The notes under the pieces: model-generated
What the model was told of the DNA's origin: nothing
Databases searched by the model: none
The model's input: the letters and a program-made list of their open reading frames with translations, nothing else
Position numbers and translations under genes: made by a program
Origin: Eunapius fragilis
Lineage: Eukaryota > Porifera > Demospongiae > Spongillida > Spongillidae
Assembly: GCA_963681505.1 (NCBI GenBank)
Contig: OY811982.1
Coordinates: 7,021,261-7,085,260 of the forward strand
DNA length: 64,000 nucleotides
Reading direction: 5' to 3'
Shown: in pieces, positions 1,838-52,700 of the stretch
Layout of the letters: every line of letters starts with the position of its first letter
Numbering within the stretch: the stretch's first letter is position 1

Positions 1838-4800
1838 ATGGCTCGGGTCGCAAGTGCTCATGAAGATGACGATGCCTGTATACAAAGTACCTACGAAAGC
1901 AAAGTCGCCACCTACCTATCCATCAGGGAGCAGAAACGGAAGCAGCTTAACAAGGATCTGAATGCAGCAGCTTCTCAAGCAGAGAAGGAGGAAGTGTTTC
2001 GAGAGTATCTTGTCAGCATTTTCCGCGAGAATATAGGCGAATTTACTTTCGGTTTTGAAGGAGAGTGTAATGAAAAGTGGGAAGCTTCCCGAAACGAAGA
2101 TTATGTGGTGCTGTTCACTTTAGCGAACAAGCATGGATGCATGCACATAGTGGAGGAATGCTCTCAGTCACTGGAGATGCAGCCAGGCTCAGGGCTCCGG
2201 ATGCAACCACTGGATGAAATCATGTGTGCCAATTGCATTCCGAAGAGCGGGTCACAAACCAGGTACGGCGTTGCTAGGTGTGAGAAGCGAGGGATGATGG
2301 ACTGTTCTGAAGGGTGCCGCCTGGTGAAATATTGCTCCCAGAGGTGTCAGAAAGAGCATTCACTAGCACATAAGGTTGATTGCAAGTCAAGGTATGCTGA
2401 GACAGCATGGCTGAAGGGCAGTAAGTACGATACGACTGCAGAGGATGCCAGTGGGGAGCCCCAGATTGTGGATCGAAGATTCCACCCAAAGGCAATCCGG
2501 TTTCCATCCAGTGTGACGAGCCTCCCAACACCATGCAGTGCATGCCTGGCTGAGAGTGGGGACCTGAGTGACATGGTGTATACGATTCTGAGTGTTCCAG
2601 ATGGATATGAGGGCGAGATCACCCTGCATCTCAACCATGCATCACCTAACATAGCTTTCTGCAACCTGCTATTACTGCTAGCCATGGGCACTCTTGGAGA
2701 GTTGAGTTTTGACATGGTGATACAATTGTGGTATTCTGTTGCAATGACTGACAAACAAATGTTGATCATCACTAAAATGATCGGAAAGCTAGTGCAGGAC
2801 TCTGAGGGAAAGGTGACGAAAGGTCCGTACAGTACATCTTTGCCAAAACTGCCACATGTCATGCTCACAGTAGACCTTGATCCAAAACATTGGTTTGTGA
2901 TGCTCACCGAAAATACATTGGAATCATCACGACACATTAGAAAGTGCATGGTAGATCGGGATAAGCACTTTTTGAGCCCTCAAGGCAAACGATACGCTGT
3001 TGAGATGCTCACCACACTGTCCTCTCACCAGAGAGTCTCGTGGGACAACTTCGCGGAGCAGGGCATGCTTCTGCCTCTAGGAGCATTCAATGCACATCAC
3101 AATGTGCAGAACCCATTCCTGTTCAATGTTGATAATCGCTGGAGGCCAGAAAGTCAGCTTGATCCACTACAGTGCTGGCCAAGGGCTGAGATAATTGCAG
3201 CAGGGGAGAAGTGTAATGTACCCAGCAATGACATTTATGGTGCATTGTTCTTCCTTATTCGGCAGAAGCTCTCTGAGTGCATCCAGAAGCTAAGCAAGCA
3301 CAGGTTTCACATCGTAGTCACCTGCTGTGAACCAAGTGCCCTCGTGCATCGACTTCAACAATCCAAGACAGCAATACACTATATCTCAGGGGTGGATGCT
3401 AGACAGCTGCAGTATGCACATTCAGATGATCAGGAACTCTCAGCCCTCAGTGTTAGGGCTCTGAAGGAGATCATTCAGGGTGCAGGGCTATCAACAGAAG
3501 GATGCCTGGAGAAGAGTGATCTCGTGGATCGTGCTGCCTTGATTCTTGGACGTGCTGCACCATCCGATGGTAAGTATCCTGCTGCAGCAGACACAACATT
3601 GCCACCCACACAACAACAACCCGACGAGGCAAGTGAGAAGAGAAGGTTCATAGAGACTCGAGCAAGCCTTGATTCTCCTGATTTCCTTGCTGTCTGCTAT
3701 CTTGCCCAGCATGGCGACATAACGTGGATGGAGAAAGGTGCTGAGAATTCAATTCCTGAATGCCTTGCCCTCTATGGCTGGCATCAACTATGCTGGTTTA
3801 CACCTGAGAATGCACTAAGTGCCTTATCACATCTGCAACGAGCGAAAGACATGAAGAATGCCTGCGGACTACTTTACTGGGGTTTAGTCATGGATAGTGC
3901 ATCCGGAGATACTGCTGATGCTTGCTCCGTTGCATGGACCAGCTACCATGAGTCTGCATGCCTCGGAAATGAGGTTGGAATGTTTAATGTTGCACATGTC
4001 TTGGCAGCTCGTGGAGATCACAAACAGGCAGTTGAGTGGTGGAAAAAAGCACAGCAGCATGGGCCTTCATTGTTCGAGCTGTATCGCTGTTACCATCATG
4101 GGCATGGCTGCACACAAGATGATCTGGAAGCGAGGAAGTACTTGCAGCAGGCTGCTGATAAAGGCTATGGCCCTGCATGTACTGCCTTGAGTGAGTGGTA
4201 TTGTTCTGGCTGGGAGAATGTGCTCCGTAAGAACCCAGAGAAACAAGCGTATTGGTGCAAGCAGGCCACCATCTCATCTGAGATGCGTATCTATACAGAC
4301 CCCTTGCGGAGCTTACTTGGGACAAATGCCACTCCAGCCTGGTGGAAGTCCCTAAGAACAGTGGTGGAGTTGATGGAACCAAGTGGTGGAGGAACCAAGT
4401 CTGAGAGCAAAGCGAGTGTTGATGCAGATGACACATTTGTCACACAGAAGTTTGCTATTGAGGGAGCGGAGAAATTCATGATGCAAATGAATCCATCACC
4501 ATCCAATGGAATTGGCATGAGTTCAACTCCACCGCATCATCCGTTCCTTCTGAGAGCAGAGAAGCTGGCCCTAACATCAGAAGAACAGCTGCAGCTACAG
4601 GGCATCGTGCAGGAAATCACAGACCTTCTGACCCGCAGCAGAGTGATCACCTCAGTGGAAGTATGTGGTTCATTTGGGAAAGGCACTGCTGTAAGTGGTT
4701 GTGCTGACCTCGACATGGTGGCGATAATTGCGAAATGCTTTGAGAGCAATATGTACCTGTCTCTGCAGCGCCATGTAGCCACTCTGCTTGAAGACCTCAA

Positions 4801-7800
4801 GGTGGATATAAAGGAGGATATAAAGGTGGATATAAAGCATAAGCCTTTGGCTGTATCCTTCACATACAAGCGTGTGGGAATTGATGTGGTACTGGCTAGC
4901 CCTATCATTGAGCCCCTTTCACAGTGTTACCTTCCACCACGTCCACGCTTCTTTCGTAGGCCCTCGTTATCTGTTAAAGAGTGCGCCTTCCTTCATGCAC
5001 AGCCCCCACTGTTTGGTGCTGTTGTGCGACTATTGAAGAACTGGCGAGCAAGTGCAGAGAACTGGCCTCATCATAGCAAGCCACGTTCCTATTTACTGGA
5101 GCTCATTGCATTAGCAGCAGTTCAGAAAGTCAATGCCTCGCAGTTATCTGAAGAAAATGTCCGCAGTGGCTTTGTTACTTCACTTGAGTTGCTGCTGCAA
5201 GTAATCAGTGGCAACCTGAAGCTGTACTGGGTTGACAACTACCCTGAATATAGCATCCAGTTTGAGAACCATGATGGGCCAATCGTGATGGATCCCTTCG
5301 ATCCCACTAACAACTTGGCTGGGCTTCTTCAGATCCAGGATTGGCGTCCCCTGAGCCAGCTGGCTGAGCAGACCCTCATTGCCATAAGAGATCGCAACCT
5401 CGTGCAGAGAGTCATCCATATTACACCAACTGCTGATCAAAGTGTGTCTGCTATCTCTCCCAAGTACAGGTTTTCGTGCCTCATTCTCAGAGCAGAGCAG
5501 TTTATAATCTCTGGAAATCTGAAGGAAGCACTGAATGCCCTGGCAGCTGCATCACAGATTGACACCTCAAACATAAAACTGCAAGGCATGTGGTATGAGT
5601 GCATCACACAGCTGTTTGCCGAAGAATGTGCTGACGCAAAACAATCATTGACGGAAGCTGAGTTGCTTTTGAGATTGAAGGATGCTGTTGTGGACACACT
5701 ACAAGTGTCAAAATTTGGGAAGGAAGTGAAGAAAGTGTTTGCCCAACCAGTGAAAGCACCTGATTACATCACCAAGAACATTGGTGCATGCGAGGAGATG
5801 GACATTCCATTCTCAACTTACATGAGTTCACGTGATGAAGCTGATAGCGACTCCTCAGAAATGGATGACATCCCGCGGATGGTGAAGCTGTTCCCTGAGC
5901 CCAGTGAGGACGAGCTCTACACTCCACAAATCACCAGTGTAGTCTGGAAATCAGCTCTTAAGGATGGAAACTACACTGCATGGCTAATGTTGAAGCAACT
6001 GACCGATCAGATGCCTTCAAAAGAGCAGCGAGATATGTACACAAGGGCTAGTCTGCAGTGTGTGTTGGCACATGATGCACTTTGTGTGGGTAAGGATGTT
6101 ATTGGCCTTGACCGTATGACAGATTCCATCCTGGCAATAGCTCAAACTGCTCAGCTTCATGCGTTACGTGCCCTCGCCCTCGCTGCTGCTAAACGTGTGT
6201 TGACAGATGTTTCATCAGAGATACATGTCTTACCTCACTGTGGCCTCAGTCTTCAAGTGGCAGCCAGCATTGTCCAAGTGCACGTGTATGTGATGATGAA
6301 GGCATGGGCCAAGGTTAGGGAAGCTCTGAAGCCTCTATTGAAGCAAGATGACTTGTGTAATCGAGCTGATGTTTGTTACCTAATTGGGGGTAGCTTGATT
6401 TGGACAGGTGATCATGATGCAGCTATGTTGTGGCACGAACGAGGCATCACAGCCGACCCCACTTTCCGTTTTAATCTGTTTACACTGGGGTTTGCAATGA
6501 TTCACTCAAAGTCGACAAACAAAGCTGACCCAGAGCAAAAGTTGCTTATCATGAAGACTGCAGAGAAGCACTTATGGCAGTACATCAAGCAAGGGGTGCC
6601 AGAAGACAAAAAGCGCTGTGATGCAATGTATGAGCTGGTCTACGTGGCTGTGCTTTCATCAAAATTTCAGGAGGCTCACCGCATATTGGAGATGGCTATT
6701 GAGGCAGATATCAGGCGCACTCAGATCTACAACCAACCCAGCAACAATGGTACTAAGAAGGATCTGCTGGTGGCTGCAATCCAAATGGAGCAGTTAGCAA
6801 TGGTGAATGGAGCTACATGTATGCAAAATGATGATCAAGGGATAAATCTATTTTATGACACTGTACGAACAAAACTGGGTGGAAATCCACTCCTGATTGA
6901 TGTCGATATTGCGACGCACCTGAAGAATGTGTCGATTTTAGGCCTGGATACTGCGAGGGATAACGTTTCTCAGATAATGGCCACATCTTTTTGGAATGGT
7001 GACAAATCTAATTCTGAATTAGCTGCTAAAATACTAAAGAAACTGACACAATGTAAAGACAGTGGTGATAGTGTTTGCAGGGAAGATGATGTGAATGAAG
7101 AGCAGGGGGAGAAGAAGAGGGGCATGCAATATATTGTGGTGGACTGCGAAGGGTCTGGTGAATTCCTTTCATTGGGGGAAGCACTCAGGAGTGATTGCAT
7201 TGCCACTGGCACAGTGATTACAATGAAAGGAGGCACGTACAAGGAAAAGGTAGGCCTTTGCATTAAGCACGAACACCTCACCATAAGAGCAGCAAACAGT
7301 AAAGAGAAGGTCATTATAAAGTCGTATTCTGGAATCCTAGTGGAGGCCAATCATGTGACTCTGTCAGGGTTATCAGTGGACCTTTTGAGTCCCAAGGGTT
7401 ACGATGGTGTTGGAGAATTGGATGGTCACGCCATCCATGTACGAGCAGGCACAGCTGTGGTGCTGGAAAACTGCAGTGCTGATAGTGCGATAAGTGCGGC
7501 AATCGGTATAGGGGACGTAGTGCAGTCTACTGAGATCGAGGTCACAATGGTGATGTGTAACGCAAAATCAAGTGTTGGTAATGCAATTATTTGTGCGGGT
7601 TCCCACACCAAGGTGCAGCTGCAGCAGTGCAATGGCACTCACTCCAATAACGGGCTTGAGGTGCGAATGGGTGCCACAGCGCATGTGAGAAGCTCACACT
7701 TTTCTAGCAACAGGAATTCTGGCGTGCTTGTATGGCAACATGCAAGTTCAGAAACAGTTGTTGGACCAGATAACATCATCCAGGACAATAAAGGTTCAGG

Positions 7801-9205
7801 AGCCCTGTTGGCATCACGGGGCATCATCTTTCATCATAACAAGGTCACTGGGAATAAGCTTTTTGGGGTCTCTGTCCAGCCTGATCCTGCCCCAGGTTTC
7901 AAAGATGTCGAGGTCAAGGTAGAAGACTGTGAACTCTTTCAGAATGGCTTAGGCGGAGTCCAGTTTTACGGGGAAACGTGTGGTGTCATCTCTGGTTGCC
8001 ATATAAAAGAGAACAATCAATGTGGCATCATGGTGGGCATGGGTGTGGAGAAGTTGAGCATTGCAGGAAACCGAATACAAGGTAATTACTCCCAGCAAGA
8101 AACTGGCATTATGATGCAGGGCAGGGCAAAAGTGGGAGACGATAACAAGTTCAGCAACAATAGGATGACTCCTCAAAAGGCAGAAGAGTATTTGAAGACA
8201 ATGCAGGAATTAGGGTTAATCGATGCAAAAACAGAAATGGCAAATGAGTTCATCAAGTTGAATCAACACCATCAAGGAAGACATGCAGGTCAGAGGCGAC
8301 GTGAGATTTTAGTGTGTAAACAGATGGCTCCTCACCTGTTTGGACGACATCAGTGTGCCAAGTGTGGTGCTGAAGGTGGGCCTCGCAAGAAGATGGTGCC
8401 TTGTGTCAAATGCAATGAAGTGGTGTACTGCTCCACAGAATGCCTCGAAGCAGATGCCAATCGGCATAAAGAGTCTTGTGATCCAGTGCTGTTCTATGAG
8501 ACTGCAGATGGAAAGGAGATAAGCATTGATGCAGATCACCTGCAGCATATGCAAGCACAGCGAGAGAATGCAGGCATGGTGTGTGCCTACTGCAAAGCCA
8601 TCGCAAACAAAGAGGATTTCAAAAAGTGTGCCAAATGCAGAAGTGCTGCCTACTGTTCAAAAGATTGTCAGAAAAAGCATTGGCCTGTCCACAAAACTGT
8701 GTGCAAGAGTGCACCCAAGGAATCTTGTAGCCAGAAGACGAAGGCTGGAGCTTCCTCTTTTGTCACCGTGAAAGCCACCACTCAGAATCCATTCAAAGCT
8801 GAGTGCACATCCATGAGTGGCATAGTCCTGAGCATTAATAAATATATGGGTCCTGATGGCAGTGTGGTGGACAGGATTGGGGACCCAGTGGGCGTGTTTC
8901 ATTTGTCAAGTGATGCAGTGCCAATGGTCATCAAGATACAAGGGAGCGAGGATGGCCTCATCAAGAAAAATACCCACCTAATGTTTTATAACGAGAATCG
9001 GAGTGTGAGTGGGTGGATTCATGCTGCCATGAACACCACGGGGGAGTTTAAAGATGCTTACACCCTTATATGTGACACAATCATGCAGCGTGGGGATGCA
9101 GGTCGGTTGGGTGGCAAGAAGGGCTATTTCAATGCAGTGGTTCATAGGAACATGGAGGTGAAGGTGGATTGTGGGAATCTGGTTGCTGAGAATATTGAGT
9201 GGTGA
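1838..9205 (+). CDS. Copy A: MYND-SAP-Sel1-OAS-TPR-beta-helix-MYND2 multidomain protein
   Basis: A single uninterrupted 2455-codon frame; the ATG matches the start of copies B and D. Domains seen: MYND finger about 130-182 (CANC start, YCSQRC, H and C end); DUF4470-like region about 235-330 (DLSDMVYTILSVPDGYEG); SAP-like motif about 533-571 (GCLEKSDLVDRA); Sel1-like repeats about 610-815; OAS-type nucleotidyltransferase about 925-1190 with GSFGKGTAVSGCADLD (G944, S945, D957, D959), third acid D1016 in GIDVVLA, and the OAS C-terminal helix (PLFGAVVRLLKNWR, PRSYLLELIALAA); TPR-like helices about 1210-1700; parallel beta-helix about 1762-2108; MYND fingers 2173-2214 and 2249-2289; unrecognised C-terminal domain about 2310-2455. 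OAS enzymes polymerise ATP into 2',5'-linked oligoadenylates. All three metal-binding acids are present, so activity is plausible. No signal peptide or membrane segment is evident, suggesting an intracellular protein. The overall role (immune sensing) is inference. Confidence 0.88.
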   Translation: MARVASAHEDDDACIQSTYESKVATYLSIREQKRKQLNKDLNAAASQAEKEEVFREYLVSIFRENIGEFTFGFEGECNEKWEASRNEDYVVLFTLANKHGCMHIVEECSQSLEMQPGSGLRMQPLDEIMCANCIPKSGSQTRYGVARCEKRGMMDCSEGCRLVKYCSQRCQKEHSLAHKVDCKSRYAETAWLKGSKYDTTAEDASGEPQIVDRRFHPKAIRFPSSVTSLPTPCSACLAESGDLSDMVYTILSVPDGYEGEITLHLNHASPNIAFCNLLLLLAMGTLGELSFDMVIQLWYSVAMTDKQMLIITKMIGKLVQDSEGKVTKGPYSTSLPKLPHVMLTVDLDPKHWFVMLTENTLESSRHIRKCMVDRDKHFLSPQGKRYAVEMLTTLSSHQRVSWDNFAEQGMLLPLGAFNAHHNVQNPFLFNVDNRWRPESQLDPLQCWPRAEIIAAGEKCNVPSNDIYGALFFLIRQKLSECIQKLSKHRFHIVVTCCEPSALVHRLQQSKTAIHYISGVDARQLQYAHSDDQELSALSVRALKEIIQGAGLSTEGCLEKSDLVDRAALILGRAAPSDGKYPAAADTTLPPTQQQPDEASEKRRFIETRASLDSPDFLAVCYLAQHGDITWMEKGAENSIPECLALYGWHQLCWFTPENALSALSHLQRAKDMKNACGLLYWGLVMDSASGDTADACSVAWTSYHESACLGNEVGMFNVAHVLAARGDHKQAVEWWKKAQQHGPSLFELYRCYHHGHGCTQDDLEARKYLQQAADKGYGPACTALSEWYCSGWENVLRKNPEKQAYWCKQATISSEMRIYTDPLRSLLGTNATPAWWKSLRTVVELMEPSGGGTKSESKASVDADDTFVTQKFAIEGAEKFMMQMNPSPSNGIGMSSTPPHHPFLLRAEKLALTSEEQLQLQGIVQEITDLLTRSRVITSVEVCGSFGKGTAVSGCADLDMVAIIAKCFESNMYLSLQRHVATLLEDLKVDIKEDIKVDIKHKPLAVSFTYKRVGIDVVLASPIIEPLSQCYLPPRPRFFRRPSLSVKECAFLHAQPPLFGAVVRLLKNWRASAENWPHHSKPRSYLLELIALAAVQKVNASQLSEENVRSGFVTSLELLLQVISGNLKLYWVDNYPEYSIQFENHDGPIVMDPFDPTNNLAGLLQIQDWRPLSQLAEQTLIAIRDRNLVQRVIHITPTADQSVSAISPKYRFSCLILRAEQFIISGNLKEALNALAAASQIDTSNIKLQGMWYECITQLFAEECADAKQSLTEAELLLRLKDAVVDTLQVSKFGKEVKKVFAQPVKAPDYITKNIGACEEMDIPFSTYMSSRDEADSDSSEMDDIPRMVKLFPEPSEDELYTPQITSVVWKSALKDGNYTAWLMLKQLTDQMPSKEQRDMYTRASLQCVLAHDALCVGKDVIGLDRMTDSILAIAQTAQLHALRALALAAAKRVLTDVSSEIHVLPHCGLSLQVAASIVQVHVYVMMKAWAKVREALKPLLKQDDLCNRADVCYLIGGSLIWTGDHDAAMLWHERGITADPTFRFNLFTLGFAMIHSKSTNKADPEQKLLIMKTAEKHLWQYIKQGVPEDKKRCDAMYELVYVAVLSSKFQEAHRILEMAIEADIRRTQIYNQPSNNGTKKDLLVAAIQMEQLAMVNGATCMQNDDQGINLFYDTVRTKLGGNPLLIDVDIATHLKNVSILGLDTARDNVSQIMATSFWNGDKSNSELAAKILKKLTQCKDSGDSVCREDDVNEEQGEKKRGMQYIVVDCEGSGEFLSLGEALRSDCIATGTVITMKGGTYKEKVGLCIKHEHLTIRAANSKEKVIIKSYSGILVEANHVTLSGLSVDLLSPKGYDGVGELDGHAIHVRAGTAVVLENCSADSAISAAIGIGDVVQSTEIEVTMVMCNAKSSVGNAIICAGSHTKVQLQQCNGTHSNNGLEVRMGATAHVRSSHFSSNRNSGVLVWQHASSETVVGPDNIIQDNKGSGALLASRGIIFHHNKVTGNKLFGVSVQPDPAPGFKDVEVKVEDCELFQNGLGGVQFYGETCGVISGCHIKENNQCGIMVGMGVEKLSIAGNRIQGNYSQQETGIMMQGRAKVGDDNKFSNNRMTPQKAEEYLKTMQELGLIDAKTEMANEFIKLNQHHQGRHAGQRRREILVCKQMAPHLFGRHQCAKCGAEGGPRKKMVPCVKCNEVVYCSTECLEADANRHKESCDPVLFYETADGKEISIDADHLQHMQAQRENAGMVCAYCKAIANKEDFKKCAKCRSAAYCSKDCQKKHWPVHKTVCKSAPKESCSQKTKAGASSFVTVKATTQNPFKAECTSMSGIVLSINKYMGPDGSVVDRIGDPVGVFHLSSDAVPMVIKIQGSEDGLIKKNTHLMFYNENRSVSGWIHAAMNTTGEFKDAYTLICDTIMQRGDAGRLGGKKGYFNAVVHRNMEVKVDCGNLVAENIEW
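4799..4834 (+). repeat. In-frame 12-bp triplication inside the OAS domain of copy A
   Basis: Three 12-bp units (AAGGTGGATATA, AAGGAGGATATA, AAGGTGGATATA) encode KVDI-KEDI-KVDI. Copy B has a single unit at the same place (about 27949-27960). The tract lies between the DxD pair and the third catalytic aspartate, so copy A has 57 residues between D959 and D1016 while copy B has 49 between the matching residues. Confidence 0.9.
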
Positions 9206-24971: not shown

Positions 24972-27900
24972 ATGGCTGCATGCGCGGTAAGTGATCATGA
25001 CGAAGATATCAACGACTGTGTACGCGAAAGCCAAATCGCCACCTACATAATATCCCTCGGGGAACAGAAATTGAAGCAGCTGAACAATGCTCTGAATGCA
25101 GCAGCTTCTCAAGCAGAGAAGGAGAAAGTGTTTCGCGAGTATCTTGTTAGCATTAACAACGATAAGATTGACGAATTTGTATTCAGTTCTGAAGGAGAGT
25201 GTTATGAGAAGTGTGTCGCTTCCCGAAACAAAGATTATGTGGTGCTGTCCATTTTAGCGAATAAGCATGGGTGCAAGCACATCGTGGACGCATCCGATCA
25301 GCTAGTGGTAGACAAGATGCAGCCAGGCTCAGGGCTCCGGATGCAACCACTCGATGAAATCATGTGTGCCAATTGCACTCCGAAGATGGGGTCACCAACC
25401 AGGTACGGTGTTGATATATGTGAGAAGCGAGGGATGATGGACTGTTCTAAAGGGTGCTGCCTAGTGAAATATTGCTCCAAGAGATGTCAGAAGGAACATT
25501 CACCAACACATAAGGTTGATTGCAAGTCAAGGTATGCTGAGACAGCGTGGCTGAAGGGCAGAATGTATGATATGACTGCAGAGGATGCCAGTGAGGAGCC
25601 CCAGATTGTGGATCGAAGATTCCACTCAAAGGCAATCAGGTATCCTTCCAGTGCCGCGAGCCTCCCAACACCATGCAGTGCATGCCTGGCTGAGAGTGGG
25701 GACCTGAGTGACATGGTGTATACGATCCTGAGTGTTCCAGATGGATATGAGGGCGAGATCACCCTGCATCTCAACCATGCATCACCTAACATAGCTTTCC
25801 GCAACCTGCTATCACTGCTAGCCATGGGCACCCTCGGAGAGTTGAGTTGTGACATGCTGATACAATTGTGGTATTCAGTCACAATGACTGACAAACAAAT
25901 GGTGATCATCACTAACATGCTGAGAAAGCTAGTGCAGGACTCTGAGGAAATGGTGCTAAAAGGTCCGTACTGTGCATCTTTGCCAAAACTGCCACATGTC
26001 AATCTCACAGTAGACCTTGATCGGAAACATTGGTTTGTGATGCTCACTGAGAATAGATCACGAGATTTTGGAAAGTGCATGGAAGATCGGAGTAAGCATT
26101 TGTTCAGCCCTCAAGGCAAACGATATGCTGTTGAGATGCTCACCACACTGTCTTCTCACCAGAGAGTCTCGTGGGACAAATTTGTGCAGCTGGGCATGCT
26201 GCTCCCTCTAGGAGCACTCAATGCATACCACAATGAGCAGAACACATTCCTGTTCGATGTTGATAATCACTGGAGGCCAGAAAGTCAGCTTGATCCTCTA
26301 CAGTGCTGGCCAAGGGCTGAGATAATTGCAGCAGGGGAGAAGTGTAACGTACCCAGCAATGATATTTATGGTGCATTGTTCTTCCTTATTCGGCAGAAGC
26401 TCTCTGAGTGCATCCAGAAGCTAAGCAAGCACAGGTTTCACATCGTAGTCACCTGCTGTGAGCCAAGTGCCCTCGTGCATCGACTCCAACAATCCAAGAC
26501 AGCAATACACTATGTCTCAGGGATGGATGTTACACAGCTGCAGTATGCACGTTCAAGCGATCAGGAACTGTCAGCTCTCAGTGTTAGGGCTTTGAAGGAG
26601 ATCATTTATGGTGCAGGGCTATCATCAGAAGGATGCCTGGAGAAGAGTGATCTCGTGGATCGTGCTGCCTTGATTCTTGGACGTGCTGCACCATCTGATG
26701 GTAGGTATTCCGCTGCAGCAGACACAACATTGCCACCCACACAACAGCAACCCGACAAGGCAAGCAAGAAGAGAAGGTTCATAGAGGCTCGAGCAAGCCT
26801 TGATCCTCATGATTTCCTTGCTGTCAGCTACCTTGCCCAGCATGGTGACATAACGTGGATGGAAAAAGGTGTGGAGAAGTCGATTCCTGAATGCCTCGCC
26901 CTCTATGGTTGGTATCAGCTATGCTGGTGTAAATCTCAGAATGCACTAAGTGCCTTATCACATCTGCAGCATGCAAAAGACATGAAGAATGCCTGCGGAC
27001 TACTTTACTGGGGTTTAGTCATGGATAGTGCATATGGAGACACTGCTGATGCTTGCTCTGCAGCATGGACCAGCTACCATGAGTCTGCATGCCTCGGAAA
27101 TCAGGTTGGAATGTTTAATGTCGCACATGTCTTGGCAGCTCGTGGAGATCATAAACAGGCAGTTGTATGGTGGAAAAAAGCGCAGCAGCATGGGCCTTCA
27201 TTGTTCGAGCTGTATCGCTGTTACCATCATGGGTATGGATGCAAACATGATGATCTGGAAGCGAGAAAGTACTTGCAGCAGGCTGCTGATCAAGGCTATG
27301 GCCCTGCATGTACTGCTCTAAGTGAGTGGTATTGTTCTGGCTGGGAGAATGTTCTCCGTAAGAACCCCAAAAAACAAGCACATTGGTGCAAGCAGGCCAC
27401 CATTTCATCAGAGAAGCATCTATTTCATATCTATAAACACCCCTTGCGGAGCTTACTTGGGACAAATGCCACTCCAGCCTGGTGGAAGTCTCTAAGAACA
27501 GTGGTGGAGTTGATGAAACCAAGTGGTGGAGGAACCAATTCTGAGAGCAAAGCGGGTGCTAAAGCAGATGACACATTTGACACACGGAAGTTTGCTATTG
27601 AGGGAGCGGAGAAATTCATGATGCAAATGAATTCAACACCATCCAATGGAATTGGCATGGGTGACTTCAGTTCAACTACACCACACAATTCATTCCTTCT
27701 GAGAGCAGAGAGCTTGGCCCTAACATCAGATGAACGGCTGCAGCTGCAGGGCATCGTGCAGGAAATCATAGACCTTCTGACCCGCAGCAGAGTGATCACC
27801 TCGGTGGAAGTATGTGGTTCATATGGGAAAGGTACTGCTGTAAGTGGTTGTGCTGACCTTGACATGGTGGCAATAACTGCGAAATGCTTTGAGAGCGATA

Positions 27901-30900
27901 TGTACCTGTCCCTGCAGCACCATATAGCCACTCTGCTTGAAGACCTCAAGGTGGATATAAAGTATAAGCCATTGGCTGTATCCTTCACATACAAGCATGT
28001 GGGGATCGATGTGGTACTAGCCAGCCCTAACATTGAGCCCCTTTCACAGTGTTACCCTCCACCACGTCCACGTTTCTTTCGTAGGCCCTCGTTATCTGTT
28101 CAAGAGTGCGCCTTCCTTCGTGCACAGCCCCCACTGTTTGGTGCTGTTGTACGACTATTGAAGAACTGGCGAGCAAGTGCAGAGATCTGGCCTCGTCATA
28201 GCAGGCCACGTTCCTATTTACTGGAGCTCATTGCATTAGCAGCAATTCAGAAAGTCAATGCCTCGCAGTTTACTGAAGAAGCTGTCCGCAGTGGCTTTGT
28301 CACTTCACTTGAGTTACTGCTGCAAGTAATCAGTGGCAACCTGAAGTTGTACTGGGTGGACAACTACCCTGAATATAGCATCCAGTTTGAGAACCATGAT
28401 GGGCCCATTGTGATGGATCCCTTCGATCCCACTAACAACTTGGCTGGGCTTCTTCAGATCCAGGATTGGCGTCCCCTGAGCCAGCTGGCTGAGCGGACCG
28501 TCATTGCCATAAGAGAACACAACCTCGTGCAGAGAGTCATCCATATTACACCAACTGCTGAGCAAAGTGTGTCTGCTATCTCTCCTGAGTATAGGTTTTC
28601 GTGCTTCATTCTCAGAGCAGAGCAGTTTAAAAGAGCTGGCAACCTGGAGAAAGCACTGGATGCCCTGGCAGCTGCATCACAGATTGACACCTCAAACATA
28701 AAACTGCAAGGCATGTGGTATATTTGCATCACACAGCTGTTTGACGAAGAAAATATGGCAATAAAGCAATCATCATTGACAGAAGCTGAGTTGCTTTTGA
28801 GGTTGAAGGATGCTGTTGTGGCCACAGAAAAAGGGTCAAAAGACGTATTTGCCCGACCAGCTAAAGCACACGATGTTTTCACTAAGAACAAGGGTGCATG
28901 CGAGGAGATGGACATCCCATCCTCAAATTACATGAGTTCATTTGATGAGGTTGATAGCGACTCCTCAGAAGAGGAAGACATCCCGCGGATGGAAAAGCTG
29001 TTCCCTGAGCCCAGTGAAGATGAGCTCCACACTCCAGTAATCACCAGTGTAGTCTATAAATCACTTTTTGAGGATGGAAAGTACAAAGCGTGGTTGATTT
29101 TGAAGCAACTGACCAGTGAGGACGAACTCTACACTCCACAAATCACCAATGTTGTCTGGAAATCAGCTTTTAAGGATAAAAACTACGCTGCATGGCTAAT
29201 GTTGAAGCAACTGATCGATCAGATGCCTTCAAAAGAGCAGCGAGATATGTACACGAGGGCTAGTCTGCAGTATGTGTTGGCACATGATGCACTTAGTGTG
29301 AGTAAGGATGTTATTGGCCTTGACCGTATGACAGCTTCCATCCTGGCAATAGCTCAAACTGTTCTGTATCCTGAGTTACATGCCCTCGCCCTCGCTGCTG
29401 CTACACGAGTGTTGAGAGAAGTTTCTTCAGAGATACATGTCTTACCTCACTGTGGCCTCAGTCTACAAGTGGCAGCCAGCATTGTCCAAGTGCACGTGTA
29501 TGTGATGAAGCAGGCATGGCCCAAGGCTAGGGAAGCTCTGAAGCCTCTGTTGAAACGAGATGACTTGAGTAATCGAGCTGATGTTTGTTATTATATTGGG
29601 AGTAAATTGATCTGGACAGGTGATCATGATGCAGCAATGTTGTGGCACGAACGAGGCATTGCAGCAGACCCCACCTTCCATATCAACTTCTATGCACTCG
29701 GGTATGCAATGATAAACTCGAAGTCGACAAATGAAGCCGACCCAGAGCAAAAGTCGCTCATCATGAAGACTGCAGAGAAGCACTTGTGGCAGTACATCAA
29801 GCGAGGATTACCAGAAGACAAAAACCGTTGTGAAGTAATGTACGATCTGGTCGGTTTGGCTCTACTTTCTTGGAATTTTCAGGAAGCTCACCACATATTG
29901 GAGATGGCTATTGAGGCAGATATTCAGCGCACTCAGATCTACAATGAACCGAGCGACTGTGGTAGTAAGAAGACTCTGCTGGTTATTGCAACCCTAATGG
30001 AGGTGACTGGGGGTGATCCTCAGAGAAATCTATTTTTAGCCACTCTGCGAACAAAACTGTGTGGAAATCCACTCTTGATTAGTCTTGATATGGCAACACA
30101 ACTGAAGAATGTGAAAAGTACATTTCAGCATACCATGAGGGATTGTGTCTCTCAGATTATGACCGCATTGTTTTGGAGTGGCGACGAATTAGAATCTGAA
30201 TTTGCTGCTAACATTCTGAAGAATATGACACAAAGTAAAGACAGTGATGACAGTGTTGGCAAGGAAGATGATGTGAATGAAGAGCAGGGGGATAAACAGA
30301 AGGGCATGCAACATATTGTGGTGGACTGCGAAGGGTCTGGTGATTTCCTTTCATTGGGGGAAGCACTCAGGAGTGGTTGCATTGCCACTGGCACAGTGAT
30401 TACAATGAAAGGAGGCACGTACAAGGAGACCATAGACCTTTGCATTGTGCATGAACACCTCACCCTAAGAGCAGAGAGTAGTAAAGAGAAGGTCGTTATC
30501 AAATCATACGCTGGAATCCGCATAGAGGCCAGTCATGTGACCCTGTCAGGGTTATCAGTGGACCTTTTGAGTCCCAAGGGTTACGATGGTGTTGAAGAAC
30601 TGGGTGGTCACGCCATCCATGTACAAGCAGGCACAGCTGTGGTGCTGGAAAACTGCAGTGCTTTTAGTGAGACAGGTGCAGCAATTAGTGTAGGGTACAG
30701 TGCACACTTTAATGAGATCGAGGTTACAATGGTGATGTGCAACGCAAGATCAAATTGTGGCAATGCAATTATTTGTGCGGGTTCCCACACCAAGGTGCAG
30801 CTGCAGCAGTGCAATGGCACTCACTCCAAAAACGGGCTTGAGGTGCGAATGGGTGCCACAGCTCATGTGAGAAGCTCACACTTTTCTTGCAACAAGATTT

Positions 30901-31682
30901 CTGGCGTGCTTGTATGGCAACATGCGAGTTCAGAGACAGTTGTTGGACCAGATAACGTCATCCAGGACAATCAAGGTTCAGGAGCCCTGCTGGCGTCACG
31001 GGGCATCATCTTTCATCATAACAAGGTCACTGGAAATAAGCTTTATGGGGTTACTGTCCAGCTTGATCCTGCCCCAGGTTTCAAAGATGTTGAGGTCAAG
31101 GTAGAAGACTGCGAACTCGTTCTGAACGGCTGGGGTGGAGTCCAATTTTGTGAGGGGGCATGTGGTGTCATCTCGGGTTGCCACATAAAAGAGAACAATC
31201 GATGTGGCATCATGGTGGGCATGGGTGTGGAGAAGTTGGCCATTGCAGGTAATCAAATACAAGGTAAATACTCCCTGCAGGAAACTGGCATTATGATGCT
31301 GGGCAGGGCAAAAGTGGCAGGTAATAACGAGTTTAGCAACAATAGGGTGATTCCTGAAAAGGCAGTAGAGTATTTGAAGACATTGGATGTATTGGAGTTG
31401 GTATGTAGCTACTGCAACACCATTGCAATCAGAGAGTATTTCAAGAAGTGTGCCAAATGCAAACGTGCTGCCTACTGTTCAAAAGAATGTCAGAAAAAGC
31501 ATTGGCTTGTCCACAAAAGTGTGTGCAAGAGTGCACCTAAGGAATCTTGTAGCCAGAAGACGAACGCTGGACCATCACTGTTTTCCTCATTTGTCACTGT
31601 GAAAGCCACCACTCAGTATCCACCGGAAGCCAAGCGCAAGGTGAAGGTGAATTGTGGGAATCTGGTTGCTGACAGTATATAA
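24972..31682 (+). CDS. Copy B: MYND-SAP-Sel1-OAS-TPR-beta-helix-MYND multidomain protein
   Basis: A 2236-codon uninterrupted frame, homologous to copy A along its length. The OAS core reads GSYGKGTAVSGCADLD (G949, S950, D962, D964) with third acid D1013 in GIDVVLA; the C-terminal helix motif VVRLLKNWR is kept. The N-terminal MYND finger, DUF4470-like region, SAP-like motif (GCLEKSDLVDRA) and Sel1 repeats are present. Differences from A: one 12-bp unit in place of three between the acids; a 34-residue internal duplication near residues 1348-1415; loss of the middle MYND finger so that the beta-helix runs almost directly into the last finger (CSYC to H and C); and loss of about 115 codons of the C-terminal domain, leaving KVNCGNLVADSI. 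All changes preserve the frame, suggesting selection for the coding sequence. Confidence 0.87.
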   Translation: MAACAVSDHDEDINDCVRESQIATYIISLGEQKLKQLNNALNAAASQAEKEKVFREYLVSINNDKIDEFVFSSEGECYEKCVASRNKDYVVLSILANKHGCKHIVDASDQLVVDKMQPGSGLRMQPLDEIMCANCTPKMGSPTRYGVDICEKRGMMDCSKGCCLVKYCSKRCQKEHSPTHKVDCKSRYAETAWLKGRMYDMTAEDASEEPQIVDRRFHSKAIRYPSSAASLPTPCSACLAESGDLSDMVYTILSVPDGYEGEITLHLNHASPNIAFRNLLSLLAMGTLGELSCDMLIQLWYSVTMTDKQMVIITNMLRKLVQDSEEMVLKGPYCASLPKLPHVNLTVDLDRKHWFVMLTENRSRDFGKCMEDRSKHLFSPQGKRYAVEMLTTLSSHQRVSWDKFVQLGMLLPLGALNAYHNEQNTFLFDVDNHWRPESQLDPLQCWPRAEIIAAGEKCNVPSNDIYGALFFLIRQKLSECIQKLSKHRFHIVVTCCEPSALVHRLQQSKTAIHYVSGMDVTQLQYARSSDQELSALSVRALKEIIYGAGLSSEGCLEKSDLVDRAALILGRAAPSDGRYSAAADTTLPPTQQQPDKASKKRRFIEARASLDPHDFLAVSYLAQHGDITWMEKGVEKSIPECLALYGWYQLCWCKSQNALSALSHLQHAKDMKNACGLLYWGLVMDSAYGDTADACSAAWTSYHESACLGNQVGMFNVAHVLAARGDHKQAVVWWKKAQQHGPSLFELYRCYHHGYGCKHDDLEARKYLQQAADQGYGPACTALSEWYCSGWENVLRKNPKKQAHWCKQATISSEKHLFHIYKHPLRSLLGTNATPAWWKSLRTVVELMKPSGGGTNSESKAGAKADDTFDTRKFAIEGAEKFMMQMNSTPSNGIGMGDFSSTTPHNSFLLRAESLALTSDERLQLQGIVQEIIDLLTRSRVITSVEVCGSYGKGTAVSGCADLDMVAITAKCFESDMYLSLQHHIATLLEDLKVDIKYKPLAVSFTYKHVGIDVVLASPNIEPLSQCYPPPRPRFFRRPSLSVQECAFLRAQPPLFGAVVRLLKNWRASAEIWPRHSRPRSYLLELIALAAIQKVNASQFTEEAVRSGFVTSLELLLQVISGNLKLYWVDNYPEYSIQFENHDGPIVMDPFDPTNNLAGLLQIQDWRPLSQLAERTVIAIREHNLVQRVIHITPTAEQSVSAISPEYRFSCFILRAEQFKRAGNLEKALDALAAASQIDTSNIKLQGMWYICITQLFDEENMAIKQSSLTEAELLLRLKDAVVATEKGSKDVFARPAKAHDVFTKNKGACEEMDIPSSNYMSSFDEVDSDSSEEEDIPRMEKLFPEPSEDELHTPVITSVVYKSLFEDGKYKAWLILKQLTSEDELYTPQITNVVWKSAFKDKNYAAWLMLKQLIDQMPSKEQRDMYTRASLQYVLAHDALSVSKDVIGLDRMTASILAIAQTVLYPELHALALAAATRVLREVSSEIHVLPHCGLSLQVAASIVQVHVYVMKQAWPKAREALKPLLKRDDLSNRADVCYYIGSKLIWTGDHDAAMLWHERGIAADPTFHINFYALGYAMINSKSTNEADPEQKSLIMKTAEKHLWQYIKRGLPEDKNRCEVMYDLVGLALLSWNFQEAHHILEMAIEADIQRTQIYNEPSDCGSKKTLLVIATLMEVTGGDPQRNLFLATLRTKLCGNPLLISLDMATQLKNVKSTFQHTMRDCVSQIMTALFWSGDELESEFAANILKNMTQSKDSDDSVGKEDDVNEEQGDKQKGMQHIVVDCEGSGDFLSLGEALRSGCIATGTVITMKGGTYKETIDLCIVHEHLTLRAESSKEKVVIKSYAGIRIEASHVTLSGLSVDLLSPKGYDGVEELGGHAIHVQAGTAVVLENCSAFSETGAAISVGYSAHFNEIEVTMVMCNARSNCGNAIICAGSHTKVQLQQCNGTHSKNGLEVRMGATAHVRSSHFSCNKISGVLVWQHASSETVVGPDNVIQDNQGSGALLASRGIIFHHNKVTGNKLYGVTVQLDPAPGFKDVEVKVEDCELVLNGWGGVQFCEGACGVISGCHIKENNRCGIMVGMGVEKLAIAGNQIQGKYSLQETGIMMLGRAKVAGNNEFSNNRVIPEKAVEYLKTLDVLELVCSYCNTIAIREYFKKCAKCKRAAYCSKECQKKHWLVHKSVCKSAPKESCSQKTNAGPSLFSSFVTVKATTQYPPEAKRKVKVNCGNLVADSI
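29013..29216 (+). repeat. 102-bp in-frame tandem duplication in copy B
   Basis: Units 29013-29114 and 29115-29216 encode SEDELHTPVITSVVYKSLFE and SEDELYTPQITNVVWKSAFK and their continuations. Copy A has one unit (near 5907). The second unit is closer to the copy A version, and the first has diverged. Confidence 0.85.
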
Positions 31683-35584: not shown

Positions 35585-36769
35585 CACCACATAAAGAAGA
35601 ACAATCAATGTGGCATCATGGTGGGCATGGGTGTGGAGAAGTTGAGCATTGCAGGAAACCGAATACAAGGTAATTACTCCCTGCAAGAAACTGGCATTAT
35701 GATGCTGGGTAGGGCAAAGGTGGCAGGTGATTACAAGTTCAGCAACAATAAACTGACTCCTGAAACGACAGAAGAGTATTTGAAGACAATGCAGGAATTA
35801 GACTTTATGCAGGCAATATCAGAAAACGATTTCATTGTGGTGAATGATCAGCATGTAGGTCAGAGGTGAAGTGATATTTTAATGAGCAAACAGATGGCTT
35901 CTCGTCTATTTGGACGACTTCAGTGTGTCAAGTGTGGTGCTGAAGGCGGGCCTTGCAAGAAGATGGTGCCTTGTGTCAAATGCTATGAAGTGGTGTACTG
36001 CTCCACACAATGTCTTGAAGCAGATGCAAATCGGTATCAAGAGTCTTGTGATCCAGTGCTGTTCTATGAGACTGTTGATGGAAATGAGATAAGCATTGAT
36101 GCAGAACACCTGCAGCATATGCAAGCAGATCGAGCGAGAGAATGCAGGCATGGTGTGTGCCTACTGTGATGCCATCACAAACAAACAGCCTTACGAGAAG
36201 TGTGCCAAATGCAGACATGCCGCCTACTGTTCAAAAGAATGTCAGATAAAGCATTGGCCTGTCCACAAAACTGTGTGCAGCCAGAAGACAAAGACGAAGG
36301 CAGTGATATCGCTGTCTTCCTCTGTTGTCACCTTGAAAGCCACCACTCAGAATCCAAATGAAACCATGCATACATCAGAGAGGCACAGTCCTGCGATTTA
36401 ATTCATATATGGGTCCCCAGATGGGAGTGCGACAGTAAGGATTGGGGACCCAGTGGGCTTTTTTCAGTTGTTGAGTGATGCAGTGCCAATGGTCATCAAG
36501 ATACAAGGGAGCGAGGATGACCTCATCAAGAAAAATATCTTCCTTCAGTTCTATAACGAGAATAGGAGTGTGAGTGGGTGGATTCATGCTGCCATGAACA
36601 CCACAGGGAGTTTAAAGATGCTTACACCCTTATATGTGACACAATCATGCAGCGTGGGGATGCAGGTCGGTTGGGTGGCAAGAAGGGCTATTTCAATGCA
36701 GTGGTTCAGAGGAACATGGAGGTGAAGGTGGATTGTGGGAATCTGGTTGCTGAGAATATTGAGTGGTGA
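35585..36769 (+). pseudogene. Copy C: 5'-truncated, broken 3' end of the OAS multidomain gene
   Basis: Homology to copy A begins abruptly at about 35585 in the last beta-helix turns (NNQCGIMVGMGVEKLSIAGN) and runs through both C-terminal MYND fingers and the C-terminal domain to NLVAENIEW. Lesions relative to A: CGA changed to TGA at 35867-35869; a 4-bp gain near 36132 that shifts the frame; rearranged sequence with a stop near 36400; and a 1-bp loss near 36604. Unlike copy B it keeps the middle finger and the C-terminal domain, so B's losses are derived. The 5' three quarters of the gene, including the nucleotidyltransferase, is absent. Confidence 0.8.
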
Positions 36770-45915: not shown

Positions 45916-48060
45916 TCAAAACTTTCCCTCAAATCTACGTTTTCGCGAGCTGACGAAGTCATTCAAGCAAGAGGCGATGGATAAACCATCTGTCCTATCC
46001 TTGTGGGCATGAAGAACACACAAGTTGTTTACACGCATTTGTGACATGCTTGTACGAAGGTAAGTTTTCACCCTGCACGCACTGCGCTCACTTATCGCAT
46101 TGGTCGCTGGTGTCACTAGGATAAGCTTGTGCAAGATGCAGACTTCAGAGATGCCTATGCGTGTGGCTGGTGAAAGGCCAGTGATATAAGCTCTGATTGT
46201 GCTAAGAGTCGGTTTTTTAGGCAAGGAGTAGAACATCGCTGGCAGCAATTCAAGCTGTGTTTCAAAACTTGATGCTACAAAGTCATTATGGTAGTGCTTT
46301 AAAACAAAATCAAGCTCTGAGCGATACTCTTATCTTCTTGCTGCCTTCAACAAAAGACACTCCAACTGTTTTAGGACTCCATAACCTGGTTGGTTGAATC
46401 TCTCTCTAACTGCACTGATAATAAAATCCAGACATTCATAATACTCTTGGCAATAGCGGTCTTTGGCTGTGCTATGTTGGGAGCTCTTCTTTTTCTAGGC
46501 AGTGAGGCCTCCTCTACATCATACTTCCTTTGAAAAGGCAGCACCCTTTCCCAAAATAGGTCAAATGATTCTGATGATCTTATGCTACTGAGAGTTGCAC
46601 AAGTAAGCTCTGCACATTGCTGACCTTCAGATGCTGTTAAGGTTGGAACTTGTAGAGTTTTGCTTAGATTATCAGTATGTTTTAGTATACGTTCACCAAG
46701 CAGCAAACCAAAACGGAAATTAAAGTTCCTCATTGTTGCTTCCACTCCTATAACTCGAGCTTTTATCTCTGAGTCAGTGATAACATCCTTGATCTCTTCC
46801 CATAAGACCTGGAATACCTCATAATTGTCAAGTATGCTCTGCAATGATGCTGCACGGACAGTCCACCTAGTTGGACACAAGGTACGAAAGCCTGATGTAG
46901 ATGGTGCCAGCTCATCCTTCAGCCGATTGAAAATTGCATCGCGCTTCGGAGAGTACTTTAAAAGCTTTGATATCTCAAAAGCTGCATCGAGGGTGTCTCG
47001 GAGGATTTCATTTTTTTAATCGAATCACTGGCTGCGAGGTTTAATGCGTGTCCATAATAGTGAGTATACGTAGCCCTGGACTCCACTGATAATATCTGTG
47101 CTGCCACTCCACTTCTGTGTCCAGCCATATTAGCAGCCCTATCGTAGCATTGACCTCTACAATTTGCAATAGACAAATTCATTCGTATCATCGTGTCTTT
47201 GAGGATGTGAACAATTCGATCACTCTCAATAGACTCTACCACATAAAGTCCAATGAACTCTTCACTGCAATTGAAATTATCATCTAAGCTTCGGAAACAA
47301 ATGGCAACTTGCGTTTGATTGGCAGCGTCTGTCACTTCGTCTGCCATTAAGGTAAAGAACCTGGCATTTTTGATTGAAGAAGCAATATCCCTTACTACAT
47401 TTAACGCCATGATAGTAATGATTTCGTTCTAGATTTCAGGACTGGTGTACTTGTACGTTATTCGCTCCAACCACTTAAGCAATTCAGGTTGGTGAATGGC
47501 TCTAAGCTTGATAAGTTGCATGAAATTGCACTCCTTTTCGTCATCATCCCCGCGCAAAGCTATACCTTGCTTGGCCAAAAATCGTAAATTTTCGGCTATA
47601 GTTACAAGACACTGCCGAATTGCTGCTTTCTCATCTGCATGAGCCAGTGACAGTAGCTCTCCTACATCCCGTGTTGTTTCAGGTAGAGTAACTACCATCT
47701 CAACAGCTTTCTTATGGGTGTCCGATTTCTCATGGCAGAGCCGGCGGAAGGTCAAAAATTCAACCCAGGCAAGAGGAGGGTTGCCAAGTAGGGGGGGGAG
47801 GGGGGCGGAAACTTTAAAAGTATATGTAAGCCCAAAAATCTACCCATGCAATTGCCTGGGTTGCCTGCTGGGCTCCGCCGGCCATGCATGGCTCGGGAAA
47901 GCTACTGTTGCATCCTTCCAATTACTAAATCCAGCATAAATGAAAGCTGAATCCTTGATGTTACCCGAGGTTGTGCTTAACTTTTCTGTGGTCACAGCTT
48001 TAACACAAGTAAAACAAAACGCTCGATCGTGGCAGCTGTCATAGTGCAACCAGCCTCACT
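45916..48060 (-). pseudogene. TTF-type hAT transposase (ZMYM1-like), inactivated
   Basis: Read on the minus strand from 48060: TTF-type zinc finger remnant (YDSCHDRAFCFTCVKAV, GFSNWKDATVAF), linker (LRFLAKQGIALRGDDDEKEC), DDE region (FFTLMADEVTDAANQTQVAI, CRGQCYDRAANMAGHRSGVA, HYYGHALNLAASD), CPTRWTVRAASLQSILDNYE, and the C-terminal hAT dimerisation block (LVTPATNAISERSACRVKTY). Lesions: a base missing in an A-run near 47014, another frame change near 46470, and an in-frame TAA near 46331. A normal copy is about 700 codons, so nearly all of the protein is represented. Confidence 0.8.
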
Positions 48061-49774: not shown

Positions 49775-52700
49775 ATGCTTCCATTATCACAAAAGTTGTA
49801 CGACGAGGTTTGGGCACCCAAACCAGACCTGCATACGGTGCGAGAGATTATTAAAAGGGACCCAGCCGTTCTCAACGCAGTCTGCGCGCAGAATGGGCTC
49901 ACCCCGCTGCACGTTGCAGCCAGAAGAGCTCACGTGGGCCTGGTTCGTCTGCTGGTGTCCGAAGGAGCCGATCTGGAAGCGAGAACCGCTAACGGAGAGA
50001 CGGTCCTGATTGTGGCGTGTCAGGTGAGGTGTATGGAGACATAACGCATACGGCGGTAAGGAGTCCGGAAGGTGGGGGGGGGAGGTATTAGGTTAACGCA
50101 TGTCTTTGTCACAGTGCCGTATCTACTTCACCCTTGCAGAGAGATACATGTAATGTTTATTCTCTTTTTTGTGGGGAGGGGTGGGGGGTGGGGGCAGAGA
50201 TCATATATAGAATATATGATCTCTGGTGGGGGGGAGGGATTTCATTGTTTATATGATCTCTGGATTTATAAATCTAATTGCCCAACAACAAATATGAATT
50301 TTTGGATATACAATGGCAAGAACTTTATTTCAGCCCAATCACTAGCATCATCCTGTATGATCCAGTTAGTCCCCAGAAGATGTGAAAAACAAAAGCACTT
50401 TTTACTAATCCAGAAACTACATGTACATGTAGTGGCAGTTTGAAAAAAGAACACTCACAGTTTCCTACACGAGAACATGTCATGTGCTTGTTTCAGTATG
50501 GCTTTCCTCCTACCACAATTGTCAGGTTGCTTTGTTTGCCTCTGTGCTGTGAACACATCATTTTTTAAAAGTCTCGAAGCAATTTCAGCATTCCCCAAAT
50601 ACTTTGTCTACAACCCTGTATGATGTTAGTATGGCTGTACATATGCCCCCCCCCCCCCATCAACCCACCCTTGGCCTGCCCCCCCTCTTTCTAAGGCCAG
50701 CAGCACACTGCTCTCCCTTGCCAGCATTGCTGGTTCGTTTTCTTAAAAGCCAGCTGCCTTATAAAGACGTTGTAATTACGGCCTCCTGAAGGAAATAGTG
50801 AGGGCACTGTGCCATACGTACAGTACTACTCCCCTGTGCATGAGTTGTGTGTTACACTGTGACTTTCACTTTCACTTTCATTCAAGCACAGTGAGACATG
50901 GTTTGCACACCCAGACTAAATATTACATGTACCATGTACATATTCCATCTTTACCATCCACACATGTGCACACACACATGCACACACACATTCACACACA
51001 TGTGCACACACACACACGCACATACACACACACACACGCACACACACATGCACACATGCACGCACACACATGAACACACACACACACATGCACACACGCA
51101 CACACTCACACATGCACACACAGGGAGGCAGCCTTTACACAGTACATGCTGTAGTGGAGTGTGGAGGGAACACTGGTGCTACGGATGGTGTTGGCAGAGG
51201 TGCCGTCCACCACGCCGCCATTATTGGAGCTGCGTAAGCAGAGGGTTGGCAGGAGAAGTGGGGAGGAGGGAGAGGTGGGGAGGAGGAGGAAAAAAGAGGA
51301 GTGGGGAGGAGGGTGCAGGGTGCCGTACAATACTTGGACAAGGAGGGAGGGGGAACGTTGATAAAGAGGGTTACAGGGAGCATCAGAGGGAGGGGTTAAG
51401 CCGAGTGGGCTGATCTAACTGTATTTATTTTTTCCCTGATACTTGAGGCATGTCTTGCACTACCTCACGTCTGCGAGCAGTCTGCCCTGCAACGTGGCTG
51501 ACAGGGAGTAAGTGTTTAGGACATGTGCTAGTGTACGTACTACCAATACTGTCTTACTTGAACCTACATGTATACAAAAAATATTATCTTTTGGAAGGGG
51601 AAGGAGGTACATGTAGTTGCCTTGGTACTATTATAACGTGCTCACAATGCTTGTATCAATAATGTGCTAATAGTGGCTACATGTATGTTGTTTTATTCTG
51701 ACAAATACCAATGCACATGGTACTTAAAGTTTACAATATTTTTTTCCTGTTTAACTGAAACATTGTATGTATATTTGTGCTTATGAAATGTAGTGTTTTT
51801 AGTTTGTTTTAACTTAAGCATTTGTGTATTGCTTTTGGTATGACCAGTTCTGTATGTTCCCGTTGCTTCGTTTCTGGCCCCTCCCACTAAGTGGCTACAC
51901 CCCCCTCCACCTTGCGGTTATGAACAGACATGTTGATACTGTGGCCTATCTGTTGAGACACAATGTGAGTGTGCTGTGTATGTATGTGGGGTGTTTCATG
52001 TGTGTGTACGTGTGAGTGTATGTGTGTGGGGTGTTTCATGTGTGTGTAAGTGTGATTATGTGTGTGTGTGGTGTTTCATGTGTGTGTATGTGTGAGTGTA
52101 TGTGTGTGTGGTGTTTCATGTGTGTAAGTGTGAGTGTATGTGTGTGGGGTGTTTGGTGTGTTTAAGTGTGAGTGGATATCTGCGTAGGAGTATATGTGGA
52201 TGCATGTTGCCAATTTTCTCCATTTAACACTCACCACCACAGCGCTCTGATGTGTTGCGCAGTACAAACCAGGGACTGACGTGTTTGCACATGGCAGCCA
52301 TTGGTGGGAGTCCGTAAGCGCCATCATCACAACAGTACCCTCACCATCTCTACCTCCCCCTCCGCAACCACACCACCTCATACCATCTTCATCCTCCCCA
52401 CTTGCCATCTCCACCATCCCATTAAACCATTACCACCTCCACCATCACTCACACCATGTAAAAATGCTTTTTTACATGAAAATCACCTCACCATCACCTC
52501 CTCCACCTCACCATCACCTCCTCCACCTCACCACCACCATCACCTCACCATCACCTCCTCCACCTCACTATCACCTCCTCCACCTCACCATCACCTCCGC
52601 CTCACCATCACCTCCTCCACCTCACATCACCTCCACCTCACCATCACCTCCTCCACCTCACCATCACCTCCACCTCACCATCACCTCCTCCACCTCACCA

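Follow-up and report, generated by a model that had tools for sequence, protein, structure and literature searches.

A single open frame in the sponge Eunapius fragilis raises the question of what an OAS-type nucleotidyltransferase might be doing in the middle of a giant protein built from repeats, MYND fingers, and a beta-helix. The frame (1838..9205, + strand) lies in a stretch of 64,000 nt that was analyzed as a whole (hereafter, the window), and extends over 2455 codons, from its ATG to a stop, without an internal stop, its translation being a single-exon protein of 2455 residues. The preliminary description of this locus had set the mid-protein placement of the enzyme apart from plain vertebrate OAS, and this is borne out here, with the domain embedded in 2455 residues among MYND, Sel1, TPR, and beta-helix parts. 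The explanation we favor, with a confidence falling just short of even, is that the protein is a giant OAS-family nucleotidyltransferase with a scaffold, that it is probably intracellular, and that, as a lineage-expanded sensor or scaffold, it would have its OAS domain make a nucleotide signal.

Domain organization of the open frame

All features of the protein are encoded on the + strand. Nearest the N-terminus is a first MYND finger (2225..2383, residues 130–182), recognized by the zf-MYND profile and by a profile of residues 1–560 that matches the MYND of SMYD3 (E 3e-4). This is followed by DUF4470 (2531..2743, residues 232–302; 32.8 bits against a cut-off of 25), by a weak SAP-like stretch (3434..3532, residues 533–565; ARMET_C at 21.4 bits, below the cut-off of 23.5, and RNF34L-like at 14.1), and by Sel1/TPR repeats (3980..4168, residues ~715–777), for which Sel1 scores 31.2 bits (cut-off 30.7) and the Sel1 repeat protein in PDB entry 6ork is matched at E 7.3e-8. 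The enzyme itself comprises a nucleotidyltransferase lobe (4535..4927, residues 900–1030; a PADLOC cyclase matches 924–1183 and OAS1 chains match 939–1179) and an OAS1_C lobe (PF10421; 4985..5377, residues 1050–1180). Beyond it are a TPR-like alpha-solenoid (5405..7117, residues 1190–1760), a right-handed beta-helix (7121..8170, residues 1762–2111; Beta_helix 62.2 bits, NosD 33.3), a second MYND finger (8354..8479, residues 2173–2214; zf-MYND profile), a third (8582..8704, residues 2249–2289; zf-MYND profile and PDB sequence search), and a C-terminal region of unassigned fold (8720..9202, residues 2295–2455), for which no sequence in the PDB matched at E ≤ 1.

The domain order given in the preliminary description is largely recovered by Pfam, where zf-MYND (72.3 bits over three stretches), Beta_helix, OAS1_C, NosD, DUF4470, and Sel1 are above the cut-off, and ARMET_C (SAP-like), the TPR models, SMODS (17.2 bits), and Pectinesterase (13.1 bits) are below it. 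An identity as a pectinesterase was rejected, as the match covers only positions 2–65 of the 298 in the Pfam profile and, in the comparison by beta-helix profile, about residues 5–58 of the region. For the solenoid, a profile of residues 1190–1762 matched consensus TPR chains with a whole-sequence E of 1.2e-8, around residues 1510–1570, with no single stretch of the best rows passing alone. The predicted model of this region, which is of low confidence (pLDDT 56.9), displays helical hairpins, and a Foldseek search with it returned no matches at E ≤ 0.001, though many of the weaker ones were TPR proteins. A TPR solenoid is hence backed by the profile matches and, weakly, by the low-confidence model.

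Comparison with Ephydatia muelleri

The nearest named relatives of the window protein are the Ephydatia muelleri models Em0015g1305a and EMCRGX_G024202, which are 86% and 84% identical to it over the full length. Although the preliminary description knew of no described protein with this set of domains, a passage in PMC7882143 lists for an E. muelleri Oas1-like (OAS1A) gene the domains OAS1, NT, and TPR, three MYND, a probable pectinesterase, and two beta-helix regions. OAS, TPR, three MYND, and beta-helix parts are thus common to both, the TPR of the window protein being under the Pfam cut-off. Here, the published gene is compared by its description, and the two gene models by sequence. According to the same paper, the gene is expressed, with lower levels in sponges that bear algae, and pectin on the symbiont is raised as a possibility (PMC7882143). 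The paper deals with one gene in one place, and DUF4470, introns, and an active-site analysis are absent from that account; "tandem" is a term that PMC7882143 nowhere uses, and "oligoadenylate" is absent from the available main text of the E. muelleri genome paper (PMC7385117). Among the matches listed for open PMC papers, there was no other account of the architecture, nor any of an intronless expansion, of turnover, or of changed dsRNA-contact and acceptor residues. As such, the architecture is already in print for one E. muelleri gene, as far as that passage describes it, and what is added here is the large family and the altered enzyme pocket.

The pectin question leads to a further reading, in which the protein would recognize glycans or act on pectin in dealings with algal symbionts. 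Besides being raised for the E. muelleri gene in the passage cited (PMC7882143), it draws on weak matches of the beta-helix profile to mannuronan epimerase (E 0.011) and pectinesterase (E 0.018). Set against this, a protein with MYND, SAP-like, and TPR parts would be expected inside the cell, and we consider such a function to be very improbable.

Identity of the nucleotidyltransferase domain

The preliminary description had called the enzyme OAS-type, while allowing that another nucleotidyltransferase family might score better. This was not seen, if narrowly: the bit scores tie (46.5 for OAS1_C, 46.2 for CBASS_cyclase_a (NF041116), and 46.5 for a PADLOC cyclase), and only OAS1_C is above its curated cut-off (19.9), CBASS_cyclase_a being far from passed (46.2 versus 200). 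As controls, none of eight bacterial CBASS cyclases (8 of 11 plasmid cyclases) passed OAS1_C, with a best score of 14.1 bits, and seven of them passed CBASS_cyclase_a, while both mammalian OAS tested passed OAS1_C at 285–290 bits and scored about 55 on CBASS_cyclase_a. Moreover, hhalign placed the sponge rows with 103 mammalian OAS at 99.0% (score 128) and with nine bacterial rows at 97.4% (score 84), against 0.2% and 0.8% for a control region, with the mammal-to-bacteria comparison (98.7%, score 121) being nearly as high as that between sponge and mammal. Both the hhalign scores and the bacterial controls fall on the OAS side.

Alternatively, the domain could be a bacterial-type CD-NTase that was gained apart from animal OAS and makes a cyclic or 3′,5′ product. 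The tie in bit scores (46.5 versus 46.2) speaks for this, as do two weak CBASS cyclase matches from a plasmid search (25% identity over 74%), this being the nucleotidyltransferase core shared with bacterial clade C CD-NTases (CdnC, CBASS). In the published work, as excerpted, OAS is itself placed within bacterial clade C (PMC10732462), and a closeness to bacteria is therefore to be expected. The window enzyme differs from the clade C enzymes in failing the CBASS cut-off and in having no CBASS operon, as one would expect of an animal. We further took account of phylogeny, using trees in which the animal OAS besides the sponge rows were mammalian only. An unrooted tree of 30 rows separated sponge, mammalian, and bacterial rows into three groups, with the 11 bacterial rows apart at 99/94. 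As this first tree had long branches, it was rebuilt without two and without three of the long rows, giving an unrooted 28-row tree with mammals versus the rest at 99/99 and bacteria at 100/99, and an unrooted 27-row tree with 97/93 and, for the bacteria, 100/99. Joining the sponge rows with the L032–L034 cyclases was rejected (p-AU 0.0007 and 0.03). Since the trees are unrooted, they place the domain outside the sampled bacteria, with no nesting in their cyclases, but do not make mammals its sister; that sponge and mammal cannot be joined in this way is a point in favor of the bacterial origin.

Other searches yielded few further candidates. For the window protein, the cGLR mark Mab21 (PF03281) was not listed at E ≤ 0.1, and the eSMODS mark SMODS (PF18144) stayed, at 17.2 bits, under its cut-off of 26.5. 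Two short peptide patterns each found no relatives in prokaryote genomes or viral contigs, and none were found among phages. A domain-only protein search returned eight sponge-like fragments, and the best 120 of 614 matches of a mixed profile were sponge-like fragments or, where named, mammalian OAS, with no marine sponge OAS among these best 120. Whether the three acids meet in the fold was examined in a predicted model of the enzyme, whose confidence is low (mean pLDDT 49.1, pTM 0.43), and no claim about the fold is built on it. By title, all 33 of the model's Foldseek matches at E ≤ 0.001 have the nucleotidyltransferase fold (TM ~0.35), and they are led by CdnC and then OAS1, the rank of CdnC being a further point for the bacterial-type reading. 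Taken together with the curated cut-offs and hhalign scores, which favor OAS, a bacterial-type enzyme appears unlikely to us, and identity as an OAS-superfamily member is well supported by the profile comparisons. In sequence, an intact OAS-superfamily core lies between MYND, DUF4470, and Sel1 parts on one side and TPR, beta-helix, and two MYND parts on the other.

Conserved and altered residues of the enzyme

The catalytic triad proposed earlier holds up in the alignment. Its first two acids, D957 and D959, are found within the P-loop-like motif GSFGKGTAVSGCADLD (4667..4714, residues 944–959), and the third is D1016 (4883..4885). All three, along with K948, R1064, and K1067, are present in 36/36 sponge rows, many of which are close relatives. 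An OAS-like DPxDPTNN motif is retained as well, which again argues against a bacterial-type CD-NTase. With vertebrate OAS1/2/3, the window enzyme accordingly has in common the OAS1_C domain, the catalytic triad, the K/R nucleotide-contact positions, and the DPxDPTxN motif, but it is only 23–31% identical to the mammalian rows among the matches listed. The sponge enzyme also has 14 fewer residues between the third acid and the second lobe, this stretch measuring 48 residues in all 36 sponge rows and 62 in 39 of the 40 mammalian rows used for the residue comparison (40 of 103). The sponge length is nearer to the 51–52 found in 9/9 bacterial rows, and the Ser at position 1084 is likewise that of 9/9 bacterial rows, both being features that a bacterial-type enzyme would share.

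The basic groove is mostly lost. Among five basic positions that we take to be the dsRNA contacts of the human OAS1–dsRNA structure, four are non-basic in 36/36 sponge rows, and the fifth is an Arg in 30 and a His in four. Plain sponge OAS, such as those of Geodia, Lubomirskia, and others, are plain single-unit enzymes. As for the acceptor side, the 2′-acceptor pocket of the pig enzyme is described as S186, T187, T190, Q193, and R129 (excerpt of PMC6307210), and these align to R, P, S, E, and L in 36/36 sponge rows, in an acceptor loop whose alignment is uncertain, as hhalign places a gap there. At the T187 position, Pro is the commonest residue in mammals too (25/40), which leaves four of the five acceptor positions at odds with the mammalian consensus. 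Given the altered groove and acceptor residues, neither a vertebrate kind of dsRNA activation nor a strict 2′ specificity is to be assumed. This agrees with the available reports on other sponge OAS, where the enzymes of the same phylum are described as dsRNA-independent and as producing 2-5A and 3-5A (PMC6307210), and where two marine sponges are described as making 2′,5′-heteronucleotides in vivo (PMC2852836).

A family of copies in the genome

Going beyond the preliminary description, we found that the gene belongs to a large tandem family, with altered groove and acceptor positions. The window already holds more than a lone gene, as it includes a second copy of 2236 residues with a shorter C-terminus (24972..31682, + strand; 77% identical over residues 4–2214), a 3′ remnant of a further copy (35588..36766, + strand; tblastn pieces), and the 5′ part of the next copy, which is whole in L010 (61860..63998, + strand; genome loci and tblastn). 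Genome-wide, a profile search of 219 Mb in 24 contigs gave OAS1_C matches at 24 loci, with 16 in one array on contig C12, one more on C12, five on C3, and one each on C11 and C5. The 16 in the array are all on one strand, with a match-to-match spacing of 16–46 kb. Single uninterrupted full-length frames with 74–96% identity occur at 13 loci, three more (L013, L014, and the window copy at 24972–31682) are uninterrupted with a shorter C-terminus, and eight are broken or truncated as assembled. In the three shortened copies, the main match to the window protein stops near residue 2214, and the normal C-terminal region is missing. The open pieces of the 24 loci contain the DxD pair in 23 cases and the third acid in all 24. 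Where the upstream stretches could be aligned (19/24 loci), chiefly across the few tens of bases just 5′ of the ATG, its position is matched in 19/19. The gene belongs to a family of freshwater sponges that is specific to the lineage, lacks introns, and is for the most part arranged in tandem.

Turnover and selection

A total of 34 relative proteins were collected, 14 of which are the same genome again (99.9–100% identity). A quickly built tree, with 21 of the 24 own proteins and 19 of the 20 from other genomes (the two E. muelleri models among the latter), requires the genome label to change six times. There are own-only and other-only clusters, with four C3 copies forming an own-only clade, and one own copy (L029 on C11) facing eight proteins from other assemblies (P0024, P0025, and P0027–P0032), which, from their grouping, would be an expansion elsewhere of a different paralogue. 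From the six label changes and the own-only and other-only clusters, copies have arisen and disappeared by lineage.

Mean dN/dS among 14 copies was 0.416 overall and, of 15 segments, lowest in the enzyme (0.247), these being pairwise values that are not independent of each other. The enzyme is followed closely in constraint by the SAP-like (0.259) and Sel1 (0.269) segments, and higher values were obtained for residues 1421–1760 (0.52), the linker before the enzyme (0.57), and residues 2130–2170 (0.99). Values of 0.25–0.57 hold for 14/15 segments. As for sequence variation in 13 copies, the most variable 40-residue windows were 2121–2160, 1641–1680, 1681–1720, and 321–360. These comparisons show purifying selection, as estimated from codons, to be strongest on the enzyme, and a birth-and-death of copies between genomes. 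With 7.4 kb open, uninterrupted full-length frames at 13/24 loci, and a dN/dS of 0.25 in the enzyme, a chance origin of the frame is excluded. Broken or truncated loci (8/24) are what an assembly artefact or a dead gene family would produce, but this hardly seems credible given the 13 uninterrupted full-length frames with 74–96% identity, the conserved triad, dN/dS of 0.25–0.57 in 14/15 segments, and the same kind of proteins in E. muelleri.

This pattern of selection fits a scaffold with variable surfaces around a conserved engine, though relaxed constraint would look alike, and the expansion and variation, with 8/24 loci broken or truncated, fit relaxed constraint too. Here, a constitutive metabolic or housekeeping OAS deserves consideration, in which the scaffold (e.g., the MYND fingers) only localizes the enzyme, ligand gating is absent, and the copies come from ordinary tandem duplication. 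The E. muelleri genome paper, in its available text, presents tandem and segmental duplication as a general feature of the species (PMC7385117), 2-5A is reported in an excerpt to accumulate in vivo in two marine sponges (PMC2852836), and the broken or truncated loci (8/24) are in keeping with such a role. However, the divergence is not uniform and is focused on the solenoid end and the linkers, and the turnover between genomes is lineage-specific, both of which can also arise without gating. A housekeeping OAS is thus somewhat unlikely in our estimation, if a real contender.

Proposed function

For the scaffolded, signal-making enzyme that we prefer, the retained triad and contact residues suggest that the enzyme is active, and the altered groove that dsRNA would not be the switch in the manner of vertebrates, leaving the activity probably dsRNA-independent. 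Instead, the repeat scaffold and its variable stretches (~1641–1720 and 2121–2160) may gate the enzyme through the binding of a ligand or partner. The product of the enzyme could be a 2′,5′-linked or mixed-linkage (hetero)oligonucleotide that would signal in immunity or in symbiont tolerance.

A bolder form of this proposal, and to us a rather doubtful one, is a large receptor family of OAS origin made up of giant single-exon proteins, in which the fast-evolving solenoid and beta-helix, rather than nucleic acid in the groove, gate the enzyme, and in which the messenger from the reshaped pocket is something other than plain 2-5A. If true, the family would amount to a copy-number-rich, species-specific recognition in animals without adaptive immunity, and perhaps one that decides between microbe and algal symbiont. 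RNase L is reported as absent from four sponge species checked, though sponges have OAS (excerpt of PMC6307210), and a sponge OAS without RNase L bears on the role of OAS at the base of animals.

Other sequences in the window

Between the family copies, there are transposon-like broken frames (45916–47839, − strand), with one of four matching DUF4371, which is of the hAT type. Three adjacent frames of 111–240 residues (58904–60414, − strand), with no Pfam matches at E ≤ 0.01, are possibly another transposon, and long Thr/His- and Pro/His-rich simple-repeat frames at 50895–53411 are, so far as seen, not genes. Lastly, by eye in the upstream alignment, we noticed, just upstream of position 24972, a long inverted repeat that may be a small transposon.
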